A DNA stretch of 31,558 bases from a virus: the IMG/VR virus record IMGVR_UViG_3300044681_001230, positions 1 to 31,558 of that record, one strand, 5' to 3'. Positions within the stretch are counted from its first letter, which is position 1; each line of letters opens with the position of its first letter. Below are positions 8,555-26,122 of this stretch, piece by piece. The position numbers and the translations under genes were made by a program. The notes below the pieces were generated by a model. It was not told the DNA's origin. It made no database searches and worked only from the letters and a program-made list of their open reading frames with translations.

Positions 8555-8561
8555 ATAAATA
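8554..8561 (+). promoter_or_regulatory. Late promoter TATAAATA
   Basis: An exact match to the T4-type late promoter core (TATAAATA), which gp55-containing RNA polymerase recognises. It lies 25 bp before the ATG at 8586. Confidence 0.8.
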
Positions 8562-8585
8562 AAAAAAAAGATTCCTGTGCAACGA

Positions 8586-9947
8586 ATGAACTTAATCGAG
8601 GCTTATAACGAGATATATACAAATCAATACAATCTTACGGAAGATTTGACAGATCTTATAATTCAATATTGCATTGAAGACATTGAAGAAGCTAAATCTT
8701 TTGCTGAAGATTTAGTTTTGACAAATCTTGTTCAAGATTTTTTATTTGAATTATCTGAGGAATTAGAAGTAGATATCTCAGAATATCTCGTAGAGGGTGC
8801 AGGATCAACAGCACTTAGGGGTATTATTAATGCCTTAAGTTCTGCTGGAAGAACGAAGGCTGGTCTTCAAGCGGGAACTGCTCTTGGTAAAAAGTTAGAT
8901 ACTACCGTAAGGGGTGCAGCAGCATCAACATCGATTAGATCTGCAAGAGCAGCAAGACCTAAATCTTCTCAGGAACTTCCTGGTAAGTATGCAACCATGC
9001 AGTTCAAAAAGAAAATTGATACTGCTTTATCTAGACCTGCATTGCCCCCAGGAAGATCCTCTGTGCCCCCTCAACGCCCTTCTGGGAAACGTACTCCAGC
9101 AGATGCTGGGATGCCATTCAGAGCGACTGGAGCCGGTGGAGATGCTCGCATACAAAGACTTTCAGCTCAATCTGCTCCCGGATCAGGATTAAACCCGGCT
9201 GCGTTGAAAACTCAAACTTCCAAAATGACTGATGCTGCTGATGCATTAAACAAAGCCAGAAGAGCCCTTGCTGGAGTTGCTGCAGCTGGACTAGCTGCTA
9301 GTTCTGTTGTTCCCGTAATTAACGATACTGGAAAAAAGAAAAGTCCCGAATCCAGCGTAAACAAATACAATACCAAGGATTCGGGTGGTAAAATTAGAAG
9401 TCGCTTAAAGGTTGGCCCTAAAATTGTTGGAACTGGAAGCATAGCTGGTGATTTCGATCTTGCATTTAAAAAGGCAAGATCTTCTGGGGCTAAATCCTTC
9501 AAATTTCAAGGAAAACAATATACTACAAAATTAAAAACTGAGGAAGTTGATTATTTCGATGTAGTGCTGGAAACTTTAATTGCCGAAGGTTATGTTGATA
9601 GTATCGAAGATGCTTTAATTATGATGACCGCATTAGATGAAAATATTATTTCAAAAATAGCCTCTGGTGCTATTAAAAATGTAATTAAAACAGGCGCAGA
9701 CAAATTGACAAAAACAAAACTTCCACCGAAGATGGATCCAGCGTTAAAGGCAGTAAAGGATTCTATTAAACAGCAATATGGATCTGGAGCTTTAATGGGA
9801 ACTCCTGAATACAGATATGCAAAAGCTGCAAGACAAGCTGAATTGAGAAAAAATCCACCGCCAAAGCCAAAATACGTAGATCCATTTCCGGGAGATGTTT
9901 ATTCCAGAGGGGACTTTGGAATTCGAGGATACAGGTCTGGAGATTGA
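8586..9947 (+). CDS. Late-expressed virion-type protein with Ala/Gly/Pro-rich centre
   Basis: The protein has about 453 residues from ATG 8586; an in-frame GTG at 8577 would sit only ~16 bp after the late box, so the ATG is preferred. The acidic helical N terminus contains EDLTDLIIQYCIEDIEEAKS. A low-complexity central region (~80-260) is rich in Ala, Arg, Pro, Ser and Gly. A second acidic helical module YFDVVLETLIAEGYVDSIED lies at ~320-340, and the C terminus is basic, Pro- and Gly-rich. The two acidic modules resemble each other and the 'D-x-V-L-x-x-L-I-x-E-G-[YF]' segments common in cyanophage late proteins. I do not recognise a function; the late promoter and composition suggest a virion or head-associated protein. 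It sits between the VWA and AAA+ genes, with a terminator on both sides. Confidence 0.7.
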   Translation: MNLIEAYNEIYTNQYNLTEDLTDLIIQYCIEDIEEAKSFAEDLVLTNLVQDFLFELSEELEVDISEYLVEGAGSTALRGIINALSSAGRTKAGLQAGTALGKKLDTTVRGAAASTSIRSARAARPKSSQELPGKYATMQFKKKIDTALSRPALPPGRSSVPPQRPSGKRTPADAGMPFRATGAGGDARIQRLSAQSAPGSGLNPAALKTQTSKMTDAADALNKARRALAGVAAAGLAASSVVPVINDTGKKKSPESSVNKYNTKDSGGKIRSRLKVGPKIVGTGSIAGDFDLAFKKARSSGAKSFKFQGKQYTTKLKTEEVDYFDVVLETLIAEGYVDSIEDALIMMTALDENIISKIASGAIKNVIKTGADKLTKTKLPPKMDPALKAVKDSIKQQYGSGALMGTPEYRYAKAARQAELRKNPPPKPKYVDPFPGDVYSRGDFGIRGYRSGD

Positions 9948-15226: not shown

Positions 15227-15940
15227 ATGAACTTAGAGACTTTTTTAGAACAAAAGATTACGTTTAAATATCACAATATTCTTAATAAAAAATTTTGGGA
15301 AGGTGATCAGTTAAAGTCTGAAGTTAGAATGAAATTAATTTTAATTGCAAAAGCGTGGTCAGAATTTGCAAATATACCAAAATCGGCAATTAAGGATATA
15401 ATTTTTGTTGGCGGAAATGCAAATTACAACTATACCAAATATTCGGATATAGATCTTCATTTAGTTGTAAACAAAAAAGAACTTCCAGACTGTCCAGATT
15501 TAATAGACGATTATCTTAGAGACAAAAAGCAGTTATGGGCATTAACCCATGACATAAAAATATATGGTCATACTGTGGAATTGTATGCTGAAGAAGAGGG
15601 ACTTCAACGCCCATCAAATCAAGGAGTATATTCAATTAAATATAAAACCTGGTTAGTTCCACCAAAAAAACAAAATCCTAATATAGACACTAGGTTGCTA
15701 AAAAGAAAAACTCATGATATAATGGATATGATTGATGTTTTTATTTCTGGTAAATCTAATGATATTGGTGAAATGACTAAATTAAAAGAAAAACTCAGAA
15801 CAATGAGATCTGTTGCAATACAGCGTGGGGGGGAATTTTCACTTGAAAATTTAGTCTTTAAAGAACTTAGAAATAACGGATATTTAAATAAATTTTCCGA
15901 ATACATTAATTCAAAAAAAGTAAAAGAACTTTCTCTTTAA
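15227..15940 (+). CDS. Late-expressed nucleotidyltransferase (DNA polymerase beta superfamily)
   Basis: The protein has 237 residues. The superfamily signature G-G-x(9-13)-D-h-D is present as VGGNANYNYTKYSDIDLHLVV (~65-85). A third acidic residue follows on a beta strand, HTVELYAEE (~122-130). The C-terminal half is helical and basic. Members of this superfamily transfer nucleotides to RNA, proteins or small molecules; the target here is unknown. Unlike the surrounding replication genes it is driven by a late promoter, which suggests a role late in infection or inside the virion. Its N terminus, MNLETFLEQ, distantly resembles a T4 capsid-targeting peptide but is not convincing. It is followed by two Sm-like genes without a new promoter. 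Confidence 0.8.
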   Translation: MNLETFLEQKITFKYHNILNKKFWEGDQLKSEVRMKLILIAKAWSEFANIPKSAIKDIIFVGGNANYNYTKYSDIDLHLVVNKKELPDCPDLIDDYLRDKKQLWALTHDIKIYGHTVELYAEEEGLQRPSNQGVYSIKYKTWLVPPKKQNPNIDTRLLKRKTHDIMDMIDVFISGKSNDIGEMTKLKEKLRTMRSVAIQRGGEFSLENLVFKELRNNGYLNKFSEYINSKKVKELSL

Positions 15941-19033: not shown

Positions 19034-20035
19034 ATGTCATTTTTAAATGAAATTATTAAGGAGATTGGTGGAGAATATACTCAATTAGCATCAGAAATTG
19101 TAGAGACGGAGAATTATGTTGACACGGGTTCTTTTATCTTTAACGCATTGGTTTCGGGCAGCATTTTTGGCGGGGTTTCTGCTAATAAAATCACTGCTAT
19201 CGCTGGAGAAACTTCTACTGGAAAGACTTTTTTCTCTCTCGCTGTGGTTAAGAATTTTCTTGATAGTAACCCCGATGCTTATTGCCTCTATTTCGATAGT
19301 GAAGCTGCTATCACTAAATCTCTTTTAGAAAGTCGTGGAATTGATACTACTAGAATTGTAGTTGTTAATGTTGTTACTGTAGAGGAGTTTCGTGGAAAAG
19401 CACTTAAGGCAGTTGATATGTATCTTAAAAAGCCTGCTGAAGATCGAAAATTGTGTATGTTTGTGCTAGACTCTTTAGGTATGCTTTCAACTGAAAAGGA
19501 AATTACTGATGCCTTAAATGATAAGCAAGTGAGAGACATGACAAAATCTCAACTTGTTAAAGGAGCATTCCGTATGCTAACTTTGAAGTTGGGCCAGGCA
19601 AACATTCCAATGTTGGTCACCAATCATACCTACGATGTTATTGGTTCTTATGTTCCCGCAAAGGAAATGGGTGGTGGATCTGGGCTTAAATACGCTTCTT
19701 CTACAATCATTTACTTATCCAAGAAAAAGGAAAAGGACGGAACTGAAGTTGTAGGTAATATTATTAAAGCCAAGACTGCTAAATCTCGTTTGAGTAAAGA
19801 AAATCAGGAAGTGGAGATTCGTTTGTATTATGATGAGCGTGGTCTTGATCGGTACTATGGTCTTTTGGAGCTTGGTGAACTTGGTGAACTTTGGAAAAAT
19901 GTTGCGGGTAGATATGAAATAGACGGGAAAAAAATCTATGCAAAACAAATTTTAGCAGAGCCTGAAAAATATTTTACCCCAGAAGTTCTTCAGGCATTAG
20001 ATGAGATTGCTAGGAGTCAATTTTCTTATGGTTGA
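19034..20035 (+). CDS. uvsX: UvsX RecA-like recombinase
   Basis: The protein has 333 residues (T4 UvsX: 391). It has Walker A GETSTGKT (58-65), an acidic residue after AYCLYFDSE (~88-90), Walker B CMFVLDSLG (141-149) and loop-2 region QANIPMLVTNHTYDV with GGGSGLKYASS (~205-235). It forms helical filaments on single-stranded DNA and catalyses strand exchange for recombination-dependent replication, with UvsY as loader. A strong ribosome-binding site precedes ATG 19034. Its last bases overlap the 2OG-oxygenase gene. Confidence 0.95.
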   Translation: MSFLNEIIKEIGGEYTQLASEIVETENYVDTGSFIFNALVSGSIFGGVSANKITAIAGETSTGKTFFSLAVVKNFLDSNPDAYCLYFDSEAAITKSLLESRGIDTTRIVVVNVVTVEEFRGKALKAVDMYLKKPAEDRKLCMFVLDSLGMLSTEKEITDALNDKQVRDMTKSQLVKGAFRMLTLKLGQANIPMLVTNHTYDVIGSYVPAKEMGGGSGLKYASSTIIYLSKKKEKDGTEVVGNIIKAKTAKSRLSKENQEVEIRLYYDERGLDRYYGLLELGELGELWKNVAGRYEIDGKKIYAKQILAEPEKYFTPEVLQALDEIARSQFSYG

Positions 20036-21963: not shown

Positions 21964-22422
21964 ATGAAAATTAACAAAGAAACCCTTCCTAATGGAGAAA
22001 TTAAATTTACTATGACTAATAAAATCGATTTTTCAAAATACCAAGAATTTGTGGATGCAGTTACTTCCGATGCATCAAAAGATTTTGTTTCATTTTCTGA
22101 TCGGATTGTTGAACTTGATAGAAATGGAGCAAATATTGAAAGACTTCTAACCGCCGCTGTTGGAATTAATGCTGAAGGCGGGGAATTTATGGAAATTGTC
22201 AAAAAAATGATCTTTCAAGGAAAGCCCTGGAATGATGACAATAAAAATCACTTGAAGATCGAACTTGGAGATGTTATGTGGTATGTAACTCAAGCATGTA
22301 TTGCATTGGATGTTTCTATTGATGAAATTGTTGCTTCAAATGTAAATAAATTGATGAGGCGTTATCCTGAAGGATATTTCGATCCTTACTACAGCGAAAA
22401 TCGTGAAGTTGGTGATTTGTAA
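21964..22422 (+). CDS. MazG-like nucleotide pyrophosphohydrolase
   Basis: The protein has 152 residues. The all-alpha NTP-PPase motif is visible: E71-G-G-E74-x-x-E77 (NAEGGEFMEIVKK) and E100-x-x-D103 (IELGDVMWYV), the Mg-binding ExxE(12-28)ExxD set. The tail LMRRYPEGYFDPYYSENR is typical of phage members. Cyanophage MazG-type enzymes have been proposed to act on (p)ppGpp, while biochemical work favours deoxynucleotide substrates. The place between helicase and ribonucleotide reductase genes fits nucleotide-pool management. Its stop codon overlaps a late-type box. Confidence 0.87.
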   Translation: MKINKETLPNGEIKFTMTNKIDFSKYQEFVDAVTSDASKDFVSFSDRIVELDRNGANIERLLTAAVGINAEGGEFMEIVKKMIFQGKPWNDDNKNHLKIELGDVMWYVTQACIALDVSIDEIVASNVNKLMRRYPEGYFDPYYSENREVGDL

Positions 22423-22428
22423 TAAATA
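22421..22428 (+). promoter_or_regulatory. Late-type promoter AATAAATA
   Basis: A match to the NATAAATA late core, overlapping the MazG stop codon and 16 bp before ATG 22444. It is the first of a series of late boxes in this block. Confidence 0.6.
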
Positions 22429-22443
22429 GTTTAAAAGCATATT

Positions 22444-22698
22444 ATGCCACCCTTTTTACAGATAGTGCTGGATAAATTTGTAGACAGCTATTATCAGGAA
22501 AAGAAAAAAATAAGATATGATAGAGATGCAATTCTTAATTTGTGTCTCTATTTTTCTTGTGTTATGGACAATGAGATTAAAACGAAAAGAAATCCAAATG
22601 AAATTAAAAAGTATAAAAACCTAAAGATGTATGGTCTTGACTATATAAAATATAACAAAAAAACAATAACAAACTATTTAAATTTGCAAACAAGATGA
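22444..22698 (+). CDS. Hypothetical basic protein (84 aa)
   Basis: The protein has 84 residues and I recognise no family. It is helical, with many Lys and Tyr residues and an N-terminal hydrophobic stretch (PPFLQIVLDKFVDSYY). It is probably expressed late because of the AATAAATA box just upstream, and it overlaps the next gene by four bases (ATGA). It may be a small packaged or structural accessory protein. No signal peptide or transmembrane segment is convincing. Confidence 0.6.
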   Translation: MPPFLQIVLDKFVDSYYQEKKKIRYDRDAILNLCLYFSCVMDNEIKTKRNPNEIKKYKNLKMYGLDYIKYNKKTITNYLNLQTR

Positions 22699-22943
22699 AA
22701 ACTTTTTTAGACTTTTTATCTGAGGCAACTCGACATCAACCTAACTTAGAAAGTTTCACCCCGGAAGAATTGCGAGAAAAATATATTTGCGGTTCAATTT
22801 TTAAAAATGGGTCTCTTATTGAACAAATAAGCACCGGAAAAATAGGAACTGTTATGAGACGAGGAACTAATTACCTAATATGTTTAACTGATGATGGTAA
22901 TCTGTTTAAACCTTGGATCACTGATTCTAAAGAACTTAAATAA
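22695..22943 (+). CDS. Small SH3-like protein with a T4-type capsid-targeting N terminus
   Basis: The protein has 82 residues. The first eleven, MKTFLDFLSEA, align without gaps with the capsid-targeting sequence of T4 internal proteins (IPI/IPIII: MKTYQEFIAEA). In T4 the head protease gp21 cleaves after Glu10 in an (I/L)-x-E site; here the site would be L-S-E10/A11. The remainder, with ISTGKIGTVMRRGTNYLICLTDDGNLFKPWI, resembles a KOW/SH3-like barrel found repeatedly in cyanophage small proteins. Together this predicts an internal head protein packaged with the DNA. It overlaps the previous gene by ATGA. A late box follows at its own stop codon. Confidence 0.7.
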   Translation: MKTFLDFLSEATRHQPNLESFTPEELREKYICGSIFKNGSLIEQISTGKIGTVMRRGTNYLICLTDDGNLFKPWITDSKELK

Positions 22944-22976: not shown

Positions 22977-24632
22977 ATGTCTAATATTTGGCAGCAAGCT
23001 TTTGAATCCCATAGAGAGCAAATAGACGAGAATTATGTTGCTGAAAAATATGGGCAACATAAGAGTGATGAGTCTGAAGAAACTCAAGCTCTTTATGATC
23101 TTCGTAACAAAATGAAGAACATGGGTAAGGATGCGGTGATTGCTTACCTAAAGCGTTCTAAAATGTCTCCCGAAAGAAAGGCAAGACTCGCTCGTTCATT
23201 GGGGGTTTCTTTTGTTGGAGAAGAAGTTACAACTGAGGGTGTTGCTTCATTGATTAGAGGAGGTCTTGCTGCTGGAACTGCATTAGCTGGTATTAAAGTT
23301 GGCAAAGATGCACAAGATGTAGCTAATAGACTAAAAGCACAAAATGCACAGAAAGAAAAACAAATAAAGCAACTTTTAAATAGGGAAGAATTTGAAAATA
23401 TCGAGGAAAAAATTACAGCTAAAACGGATATTGGAGATGCAATTAGAGATTTTGAATCGTCAAAATCTCCACAATTAGCTGGTAGAACTAAAGAAGAAAG
23501 AAGAAAGGCTGCTATTGCTGCGGTATTAACTGCACGTAGAGGTGGAAAAAAGTTAGGTGAAGATATTTCAGACATTGCTGAAGATCAAAAGGGAAAGGTT
23601 CACGTTAGAATTACCAAAGACGATGGAACTACCTTTGAAAAGCATCTTTTACCAAATCAAGTTTTAGATTATAGAAAAAGATATAAAACTGTAGTTGTTT
23701 TGGGAGCTGAAGAAGGATTAGCAACCGGGACAGCTTCTTCGCAGCAACAAAGAGCAGAAGCTACGGAAGTTAAGCGTTGGTGGGATGATGATGGCGATGG
23801 GGTTGGATATGAAAAGGGTGAAGTTTCTGGAAAGTTTAAGAAAAAAAAGAAAGTAAAAAAAGAAAGTTATTCTGAATGGAGAAATGAACTCCCTCAGTTT
23901 TACGAGGAAACAAAAGCTCAAAAAAGCGTAATGGGCAGAGGATCTACTCCTTCCGATGAGGGAGAAGAAAAAAAAAATAAAAAAAAATCCTCTGAGTCCG
24001 AATGTGGTTGTTCACACGAAGTAAAGGAAGCTGCCGAAAAATTAGCTGAAGATCTTGGAGCAGAATTAGTTGATATTAACGAATTTGCTGGACCTTTAGT
24101 AAGAAGTGCAATTAAAGCATTTACACGCACTCCAGTAAAACCAAGTCCCTTAAAAATACCCATAAGACCTTTAACCCCAGGACCAATTGTTCCAGCTAAG
24201 CCTTCTCCAAAACCAACGCCAACAAAGCCACAACCAAAGCCACAACCACAACCACAACCAAAGCCACAACCACAACCACAACCAAAGCCACAACCAAAGC
24301 CACAACCACAACCAAAGCCACAACCAAAGCCACAACCAAAGCCAGTACCAACTCCGGTAAAAACAACCCCAAAAGGTCAAACTAAAACACAAACCGGAAT
24401 TTTAGTTAGACTTGATCCTAAAACTGGAGCCATAAGTGATGTTGAAACTAAACCAACAGTTGGGGTCAATGTACCAACTCCTCCTGGACCACCTTCAACT
24501 CCAGCTCCACCAGCTCCACCTAGAGGGCCAGGATTAAGACCTACTCCAAGGAATAATCGTAAACTTTTAGCACCTCAATTGAGAGCATCTCTACCAGATC
24601 CTATTCCAAAAACCGGTCAATTTAAGGTTTGA
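22977..24632 (+). CDS. Large late protein with Pro-Gln/Pro-Lys tandem repeat (virion-type)
   Basis: The protein has 551 residues with no enzymatic family recognised. The N-terminal half is helical and charged, with a Gly/Ala-rich segment GGLAAGTALAG (~95-105). At ~262-274 an acidic DDDGDG cluster reads like a calcium-binding loop (WWDDDGDGVGYEKGE), followed by KFKKKKKVKKESYSEWR, a phrase common in cyanophage late proteins. Acidic/lysine patches follow to ~345. After ~385 the chain becomes proline-rich, with 19 consecutive Pro-Gln or Pro-Lys units (residues 418-455) and a second Pro-rich tail. This suggests an extended, spacer-like virion component. The AATAAATA late box upstream supports late synthesis. 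Confidence 0.75.
   Translation: MSNIWQQAFESHREQIDENYVAEKYGQHKSDESEETQALYDLRNKMKNMGKDAVIAYLKRSKMSPERKARLARSLGVSFVGEEVTTEGVASLIRGGLAAGTALAGIKVGKDAQDVANRLKAQNAQKEKQIKQLLNREEFENIEEKITAKTDIGDAIRDFESSKSPQLAGRTKEERRKAAIAAVLTARRGGKKLGEDISDIAEDQKGKVHVRITKDDGTTFEKHLLPNQVLDYRKRYKTVVVLGAEEGLATGTASSQQQRAEATEVKRWWDDDGDGVGYEKGEVSGKFKKKKKVKKESYSEWRNELPQFYEETKAQKSVMGRGSTPSDEGEEKKNKKKSSESECGCSHEVKEAAEKLAEDLGAELVDINEFAGPLVRSAIKAFTRTPVKPSPLKIPIRPLTPGPIVPAKPSPKPTPTKPQPKPQPQPQPKPQPQPQPKPQPKPQPQPKPQPKPQPKPVPTPVKTTPKGQTKTQTGILVRLDPKTGAISDVETKPTVGVNVPTPPGPPSTPAPPAPPRGPGLRPTPRNNRKLLAPQLRASLPDPIPKTGQFKV
24228..24341 (+). repeat. 19 x 6-bp tandem repeat (CCACAA / CCAAAG)
   Basis: 114 bp consist only of CCACAA (Pro-Gln) and CCAAAG (Pro-Lys) units, in the order Q K QQQ K QQQ K Q K QQ K Q K Q K. 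Every proline is CCA, every Gln CAA and every Lys AAG, so the array has expanded recently by slippage or recombination, and copy number probably varies between strains. Confidence 0.95.
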
Positions 24633-24946: not shown

Positions 24947-24953
24947 ATAAATA
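24946..24953 (+). promoter_or_regulatory. Late promoter TATAAATA
   Basis: An exact late core at the end of the terminator U-tract, 28 bp before ATG 24981. Confidence 0.82.
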
Positions 24954-24980: not shown

Positions 24981-25508
24981 ATGGCACTCTGGGGAAACTC
25001 TGATAATGTAGGTTCAAACGGAACAGTATCCTTGAACTATTCTACTCGTATTGTTACTGGAGCTGGAACTAGTTTTGGGCAAGTTGGAGCCGCTAAAACC
25101 GGTGATATCATTCGGTTTGGAGTTAGAGGTTCTGGAGGAACTTACTATGGAGATGCTGTAGTTGTTGGAATCGCCAGCACAACTCAACTTACTATCGGAT
25201 CTACTTCAGGACTTAGCGGAGCTTCTATTGCGAGTACTGATTTTTATATTAGTGAGCTTCCGATGTATACTGTATTAGACTCTACTTATAGTGAAAAGTA
25301 CGGTGTTAATGACAAGCAAGTTTATGGTGTTAGTAGATCATTGACTGGAATAGTCACAGGAAAATATGCCCCAGCTCATCAGGGATGGGTGGGAGTTACA
25401 ACTTATGTTGATCAGCATGGCAGATTGAGAGTAAAAAGTGAAGTGTTAGTAGCAATGTCTGGAATTACAACCGGATCTAACGGCATTTCGTATCCAACTA
25501 ACGTTTGA
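24981..25508 (+). CDS. Virion structural protein (cyanophage-conserved, beta-rich)
   Basis: The protein has 175 residues. It is a Gly/Ser/Thr-rich, beta-strand-rich chain beginning MALWGNSDNVGSNGTVSLNY, with repeats of 'VTGAGTSFGQVGAAKTGD' and 'IASTTQLTIGSTSGLSGA' and the end GWVGVTTYVDQHGRLRVKSEVLVAMSGI. Proteins with this start and end are common in cyanomyoviruses, where they are listed as structural proteins (recalled). Cysteine is absent, as in many extracellular virion proteins. It has its own strong late promoter. The exact position in the particle cannot be read from the sequence. Confidence 0.8.
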   Translation: MALWGNSDNVGSNGTVSLNYSTRIVTGAGTSFGQVGAAKTGDIIRFGVRGSGGTYYGDAVVVGIASTTQLTIGSTSGLSGASIASTDFYISELPMYTVLDSTYSEKYGVNDKQVYGVSRSLTGIVTGKYAPAHQGWVGVTTYVDQHGRLRVKSEVLVAMSGITTGSNGISYPTNV

Positions 25509-25514
25509 TAAGTC

Positions 25515-25886
25515 ATGAGATTTAATGAATTGAATGAAGATAATTACATGATTTTTGCAATTAAAAATTATGATAATCCTCAAGCAGTAACACAAGATGA
25601 TTTTTTTGAAGACATGAAGAGATTTAAATATGTGAAAAAAATTCTCAAACATTATAAAAATACTGGAGAATTAAAATCACATTTACTTATAAATCACTTT
25701 ATCATTCTATACAATATTTTTGGAGAAGCAGCAACACCATTATTATTTTTTAAGATAGATCGTGATTTTTGGCCTTCAATGAAATCCGTTATGCTTTTTT
25801 TGGGAAGATTTCCGGAGTATCCAAAAACTATTTTGCATGAAATAGTGGAGGACGAACACTGCTTAACTATTCTTCAAAATCTATGA
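25515..25886 (+). CDS. Conserved cyanophage hypothetical protein (123 aa)
   Basis: The protein has 123 residues and is mostly helical and acidic/aromatic, with segments DDFFEDMKRFKYVKKILKHYKNTGELKSHLLINHFIILYNIFGEAATPLLFFKI. I recall similar proteins from other cyanomyoviruses but no assigned function. No domain or catalytic motif is evident. It starts seven bases after the structural gene stop and its TGA overlaps the next ATG (ATGA), so it is probably transcribed from the late promoter at 24946 together with the next two genes. Confidence 0.75.
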   Translation: MRFNELNEDNYMIFAIKNYDNPQAVTQDDFFEDMKRFKYVKKILKHYKNTGELKSHLLINHFIILYNIFGEAATPLLFFKIDRDFWPSMKSVMLFLGRFPEYPKTILHEIVEDEHCLTILQNL

Positions 25887-26122
25887 ATAATTTAGAAAAA
25901 ATTATAGATATTATTAGAAGTCTTCGTGAGGATTCTCCGACAATGAGTGCTGGGAATCTTGGTTTTACTCATGCAGCCAACCCTAAAGGACCGGTAGCCG
26001 GATATGATAAACCAATTTATTCTGTCGGACAGGGTAAAACGACCCTCGATTTTAGACGAAAAATACCAAAGAAACTACCGCCAGAATACCAACAGATATA
26101 CCGGAGGAAGCCAAGTGTTTAA
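25883..26122 (+). CDS. Small cyanophage hypothetical protein (79 aa)
   Basis: The protein has 79 residues. An N-terminal helix (MNNLEKIIDIIRSLRED) is followed by a Gly/Pro/Lys-rich tail (TMSAGNLGFTHAANPKGPVAGYDKP, DFRRKIPKKLPPEYQQIYRR). The composition (short amphipathic helix plus disordered basic tail) is typical of small cyanophage virion or assembly proteins, but no family is recognised. Its 3' end supplies the ribosome-binding site GGAGGA (26103-26108) for the overlapping coiled-coil gene. Confidence 0.65.
   Translation: MNNLEKIIDIIRSLREDSPTMSAGNLGFTHAANPKGPVAGYDKPIYSVGQGKTTLDFRRKIPKKLPPEYQQIYRRKPSV
26103..26117 (+). promoter_or_regulatory. Ribosome-binding site that fixes a GTG start
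   Basis: GGAGGA (26103-26108) lies six bases upstream of GTG 26115. The preceding in-frame ATG (26004) has no such site and would overlap the previous gene by about 120 bases. Confidence 0.75.

Follow-up and report, generated by a model that had tools for sequence, protein, structure and literature searches.

Background

The internal proteins of bacteriophage T4 enter the prohead core before the DNA. Two of them, IPII and IPIII, begin with the N-terminus MKTYQEFIAEA; the propeptide of IPI is longer and different (MKTFKEFTSTTTPVSTITE|A). Amber-suppression mutants of IPIII showed that targeting depends mainly on residues 4 and 7 of this sequence and processing on residues 8 and 10 (PMC9026906). 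The T4 internal proteins Ip1-3 all inhibit GmrSD enzymes (PMC12373910).

Such tagged internal proteins are known from T4 and its close relatives, and T4-GC190 is known separately as a virion protein of cyanophages. T4-like cyanophages occur in great abundance, and their core protein of NMNAT type recurs in virion proteomes: mass spectrometry has identified GC190 in virions of S-SM1 (PMC3037559), S-CREM2 (gp154; PMC10665884) and S-SCSM1 (gp91; PMC9602691), and NMNAT has also been reported for S-CBWM1 (PMC9602691). In the S-CREM2 and S-SCSM1 studies the authors did not decide between carriage in the particle and co-purification as a contaminant; as they note, finding a protein by mass spectrometry in CsCl-purified particles is no proof that it lies inside the head (PMC10665884, PMC9602691). 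In the literature found, which included few subscription papers, no paper names this tag or capsid targeting in cyanophages and none joins the T4-type tag to GC190.

Organization of the locus

The window, the whole 31.6-kb stretch of DNA analyzed here, is an IMG/VR fragment of a T4-like cyanophage whose closest relatives are Kyanoviridae. No capsid or protease genes were found in the 31.6 kb. An 82-aa ORF at 22695-22943 (plus strand, as are its parts, the upstream 84-aa ORF and the neighbors at 22977-24632, 24981-25508 and 25883-26122 described below) was confirmed as real; the ORF call, its relatives and a structure model divide it into a capsid-targeting-like N-terminus beginning MKTFLDFLSEA, a linker and an SH3-like domain. 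The predicted capsid-targeting propeptide, MKTFLDFLSE, comprises residues 1-10 (22695-22724) and is assigned from the IPII/IPIII pattern, its specificity and its conservation in the family. An (L/I)-x-E motif predicts a prohead-protease cut after E10 (codon 22722-22724). The predicted mature product, ATRHQP...KELK (22725-22940), would be 72 aa and 8.2 kDa with a pI of about 8.0. Within it, residues 12-22 form a variable linker (22728-22760), and residues 36-82 form an SH3-like barrel (22800-22940) common to the cyanophage cytidyltransferase proteins (phrog_395).

The ATG of the tagged ORF overlaps, as ATGA, the stop of an 84-aa ORF of unknown function at 22444-22698. This upstream partner also adjoins the tagged gene in phage DSL-LC03, where it is 48% identical. 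In the window the pair is placed between mazG (21964-22422) and a series of late-type genes.

The N-terminal tag

The window tag and the N-terminus of IPII and IPIII are identical at residues 1, 2, 3, 7, 10 and 11 and differ conservatively at residues 4 (F/Y), 6 (D/E) and 8 (L/I). F4 and F7 supply an aromatic residue at both T4 targeting positions, and the (L/I)-x-E cleavage motif is present as L8-S9-E10|A11. The alignment to T4 internal proteins proposed in an earlier note on this DNA thus holds for IPII and IPIII and fails for IPI, with its different propeptide.

To measure specificity we used a strict pattern, M[KR][TSNKRQ][FYL]..[FYL][ILVMAT].E, in eight T4-like genomes or large contigs (DSL-LC03, HTVC008M, P-SSM2, Syn9, P-HM1, T4 and two IMG/VR contigs). 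The pattern was matched at 16 of 4202 first-Met ORF starts versus 0 of 7372 internal Mets (Fisher P 9e-8, a descriptive value, as both the T4 tag and the window motif guided the choice of pattern); shuffling residues 2-21 gives an expectation of 0.085 matches. Every match is the first Met of its ORF. T4 itself supplies 3 of the 16, and P-HM1 and the pelagiphage HTVC008M have none. The occurrence of the tag at ORF starts is not due to chance, and the earlier note's observation of a T4-type N-terminal pattern on the 82-aa ORF is confirmed.

A more independent test is provided by a survey of proteins chosen with the N-terminus left out of account, although many of the sequences are closely related. 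An alignment covering the nucleotidyltransferase and SH3-like portions of GC190 retrieved 80 IMG/VR loci. The strict pattern heads 62 of the 66 distinct complete GC190 N-termini; of the remaining four, three depart from it at position 8 alone (F) and the fourth lacks an N-terminal extension. When short forms are included, giving 71 distinct N-termini, M1, F7 and E10 are invariant, K2 occurs in 70 and A11 in 66. Only F or Y occurs at position 4 and only L, I, V or F at position 8; positions 5, 6 and 9 vary. These conserved positions include those tested in T4, so the motif matches the T4 tag where the mutants matter. Around the predicted cut, P3, P1 and P1' are constrained and P2 (position 9) is free, as expected from the T4 rule (L/I)-x-E. 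The tag does not extend to every relative, however: the GC190 homolog of HTVC008M begins MKTLKELLRKK, and looser tag-like starts are found in P-HM1, ACG-2014e and S-WAM2. Among nine short orthologs, identity is 72% over the first 11 residues, 29% in the linker and 79% in the SH3-like part, a high-low-high profile such as a signal attached to a domain should give.

The major capsid protein offers a further comparison. T4 gp23 is cut at FLTE|A, and cyanophage gp23, whose cut sites are inferred by alignment with T4, has L-x-E at the aligned site: FLSE|A in DSL-LC03 and P-SSM2, LLTE|A in S-CREM2, FLAE|A in S-SCSM1; MLTE|A, VLTE|A, ILTE|T and NLME|S also occur there. The window tag, ending FLSE|A, is the same as the inferred gp23 site of DSL-LC03 and P-SSM2. 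It could still be argued that the N-terminal motif has some other job, for instance in translation control or as a partner-binding helix, and came to resemble the T4 tag by convergence; the shared sequence is short, and the literature found does not report cleavage in the GC190 family. We regard convergence as improbable, because the invariance falls at positions that were examined in T4, because P2 is free while its neighbors are constrained, and because the same pattern heads several unrelated proteins, many of them with late-promoter motifs.

All three GC190 proteins detected by mass spectrometry in virions are tagged, their genomes giving the N-termini MKKFSAFLNEA (S-SM1), MKNFSSFLTEA (S-CREM2) and MKSFLQFLKEA (S-SCSM1). 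A T4-type tag and protease site in GC190 argues for carriage in the particle, and would be a direct reason for the presence of GC190 in virions where two studies could not tell cargo from contamination. Family conservation, the T4-tested positions, the gp23 context and the virion data for these three relatives together strongly support the capsid targeting and gp21-type cleavage after E10 that had been predicted for the 82-aa protein, and we consider its packaging and cleavage likely. The expectation that the remainder is packaged "with the DNA" does not stand, given the order in which T4 internal proteins and DNA enter the prohead.

Relationship to T4-GC190

A point missed by the earlier note is that the 82-aa protein is a nucleotidyltransferase-less form of a known virion protein, T4-GC190. 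By tblastn its C-terminal part is found in 452 phage records, nearly all from cyanophages and mostly in genes named "cytidyltransferase"; PHROG 395 matches the same part, and no Pfam match to the protein rose above the cut-off. The counterpart in P-SSM2, Syn9 and S-SM1 is T4-GC190 or a homolog, consisting of tag, nucleotidyltransferase, SH3-like module and tail. The window protein and its DSL-LC03 ortholog (WJZ48018.1, 90 aa, from a complete genome) have only tag, linker and SH3-like module. The two are 59% identical over their full length and lie in the same gene order, differing in the slightly longer linker of WJZ48018.1. No convincing match to a nucleotidyltransferase (NMNAT-like) domain was found in the 82-aa protein, in the window or in the complete DSL-LC03 genome. 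Virion-type genes surround the window gene, which has mazG on one side and the primase/nrdA genes on the other, a position shared with T4-GC190. From its sequence and position, the 82-aa protein is best described as a domain-reduced, syntenic relative of this cyanophage core gene, and as such is a new variant of GC190, the larger version of which is present in hundreds of related marine phages.

The "cytidyltransferase" annotation in DSL-LC03 was considered as a guide to function and rejected for both proteins. It appears to be wrong for WJZ48018.1 because the catalytic domain is absent, and by the same domain comparison the window protein should not be named a cytidyltransferase.

In P-HM1, ACG-2014e, S-WAM2 and S-MbCM7 the GC190 family is split into two ORFs, which overlap in the last three of these phages. 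The nucleotidyltransferase ORF then opens directly with its domain and has no tag, and the separate SH3-like ORF begins MKDFKKLREEA or MKSLADFTKKSKVAEA. Since the split families keep a tag-like start on the SH3-like ORF, the tag-like start travels with the SH3-like module. This arrangement, with the overlap of the split ORFs, is what one would see if tag and module were a packaging adaptor for the nucleotidyltransferase, non-covalent in the split phages, covalent in the fused ones and without cargo here; the absence of the enzyme domain from the complete DSL-LC03 genome would represent the cargo-less state. An adaptor nevertheless seems unlikely to us. No evidence places the split nucleotidyltransferases in virions, and the short form is conserved in enzyme-less lineages, the module at 79% identity, so that it is not a decaying remnant.

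The stand-alone SH3-like proteins of ACG-2014e and S-WAM2 (L124:2049-2306 and L125:2031-2285) are annotated as ribonucleotide reductase subunits. PHROG 4808 is so named, and the naming of the stand-alone SH3-like proteins looks like a misannotation.

Predicted structure

An AlphaFold2 model built on 20 sequences has a mean pLDDT of 81.5, rising to about 92-95 across residues 31-80. It consists of a short helix at residues 4-11, a low-confidence linker (pLDDT <50 at 10-18) and, from residue 23, a well-predicted helix and small barrel. The earlier description of a small SH3-like protein is supported by this model. The best viral matches to the model are mostly cyanophage cytidyltransferases. Those in the PDB (Foldseek E 1e-3 or worse; best Z 7.6) are small SH3-like barrels of a generic kind; they include PetP and NdhS-type proteins of cyanobacteria as well as Tudor and KOW domains, and no specific function can therefore be read from the fold. 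The structure of T4 IPI is not among the PDB matches listed, which is uninformative either way.

Because Ssl0352 (3c4s_A), 6khi_S and PetP (2n5u) rank among the best structural matches, with Z of 7.2-7.4, the domain might be thought to mimic cyanobacterial SH3-like subunits such as NdhS and PetP and, once ejected, to act on photosynthetic electron flow in the host. However, the Tudor and KOW domains of eukaryotes score equally, sequence identity is 12-15%, and Z values below 8 are common for small barrels; we give such mimicry very little credence.

Late promoter motifs and neighboring genes

The sequence ATAAATA, the core of the T4-type late promoter, occurs at 22422-22428 (plus strand), 22 bases upstream of the 84-aa ORF of the coupled pair. 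It also lies 22-37 bases upstream of five other window genes, those at 8577, 15227, 22977, 24667 and 24981. Six genes with an upstream ATAAATA compare with 0.54 expected by random placement, and six were never reached in 20,000 trials; local shuffles gave P 0.0005 for the position of the motif relative to genes. Enrichment of ATAAATA is seen upstream of certain genes and not in its count over the entire window, and a scan of the sequence for sigma-70-type promoters did no better than shuffles. In many relatives the motif is found 21-50 bases upstream of the tagged gene, but not in a large group comprising S-SM1, Syn9 and their kin. The motif suggests that the operon may be expressed late in infection.

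Several neighbors are related to virion proteins. The 551-aa neighbor at 22977-24632 has its own ATAAATA at 22940/22944, is syntenic with DSL-LC03 and weakly matches gp92 of the S-SCSM1 virion. The product of 24981-25508, with ATAAATA at 24947, is 59% identical to S-SCSM1 gp95, annotated as a virion protein. At 15227-15940 the window encodes a nucleotidyltransferase-like protein with a late motif at -35 that is 51% identical to S-CREM2 gp156, a member of the virion proteome (PMC10665884). The relationship of the products of 24981-25508 and 15227-15940 to virion proteins points in the same direction as the late motif on timing.

The 79-aa neighbor at 25883-26122 resembles the mature N-terminal arm of gp23. 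Its relatives include S-SCSM1 gp97, a virion protein, and S-CREM2 gp160, found in the virion proteome (PMC10665884). The S-CREM2 gp160 sequence GFTGAAAPEGPVAGYDPLM may be compared with that of its own gp23, GFTGAAAPGGPNAGFDPVM; the Syn9 and S-CREM2 copies are closest to the gp23 of the same phage and the S-SM1 copy is not. A 456-aa protein at 8577-9947 has a called GTG start, an ATG (MNLIEAYNEIY) three codons on and a late motif at 8555. It weakly matches the S-SCSM1 virion protein gp89, and its start also holds L-x-E|A.

Even with a genuine tag, the product might work only inside the head, as an aid to core or capsid assembly or on the packaged DNA, and not as an effector in the host: head assembly is influenced by IPIII in T4 (PMC9026906), relatives of other virion genes surround the gene, and the predicted mature protein, having 10 basic and 9 acidic residues, is close to neutral. 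Against this, the T4 internal proteins are dispensable and many are ejected (PMC9026906), and the domain shuffling of GC190 is more like that of cargo than of scaffold. We judge a purely internal role to be the less probable course, though a serious one.

Additional tagged ORFs

The same tag is found on cyanophage ORFs outside GC190: L028:1084, L039:1483, L053:1194, L058:1339, L074:2769, L077:13737, L089:17106 and L093:736, and on the minus strand of L056 and L097. Most of them have ATAAATA or TATAAAT 26-32 bases upstream. They are candidate cargo proteins and suggest that the cargo set may be wider.

In T4 itself (locus L102), a 54-aa ORF on the minus strand near 19130, MKTFKEFIKEDMVAGDSGG..., starts in a tag-like manner and continues with GTTSGAVVNKGP, a stretch similar to the gp23 arm GQTSGAVTQIGP. 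In one contig the N-terminus MKTFLDFLVEEA is found on a 392-aa protein (L042:2789) that contains a KYDG motif and is ligase-like and apparently related to T4-GC71; this start is absent from the cyanophage relatives that were compared.

A proposed role and comparison with known systems

The best explanation overall, and one we hold to be likely, is that the product of the 82-aa ORF is an internal head protein of T4 type in a T4-like cyanophage. The protein would be made late in infection and bind the prohead core through its first 10 residues; a phage gp21-type protease would cut after Glu10, and the 72-residue SH3-like domain would stay in the head. It may have descended from T4-GC190, or may share modules with it, the nucleotidyltransferase domain being missing in this lineage. 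By analogy with T4, and in view of its small size, delivery of the mature domain into the host with the DNA is somewhat favored. An early effector role in the host is a guess, which we offer tentatively. An anti-defense or takeover function would be plausible because T4 Ip1-3 all inhibit GmrSD enzymes.

More speculatively, T4-type capsid targeting might be a general cargo system of cyanophages, in which unrelated late tagged proteins, GC190 foremost, are packaged, trimmed and delivered. Tag and SH3-like module would then be a portable delivery unit, carrying an NMNAT-like enzyme in most cyanophages and acting here as a stand-alone delivered protein. The tag predicts an exact mature N-terminus and allows cyanophage genomes to be screened, by a simple sequence test, for proteins that may be delivered; it would also serve for loading proteins into cyanophage heads.

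Compared with T4 IPII and IPIII, the window protein has the same N-terminal pattern, a cleavage motif at residues 8-10 and a small size, and likewise belongs to a T4-type phage. It differs in that no sequence likeness to their mature domains was seen, in its origin from a cyanophage, and in that its packaging and cleavage are predicted only. With T4-GC190 (the cytidyltransferase/NMNAT represented by P-SSM2_194, Syn9 gp184, S-CREM2 gp154 and S-SCSM1 gp91) it shares the N-terminal tag, the SH3-like module and, usually, a neighborhood of mazG and virion-type genes, whereas the nucleotidyltransferase domain and the C-terminal tail are present only in the larger protein.
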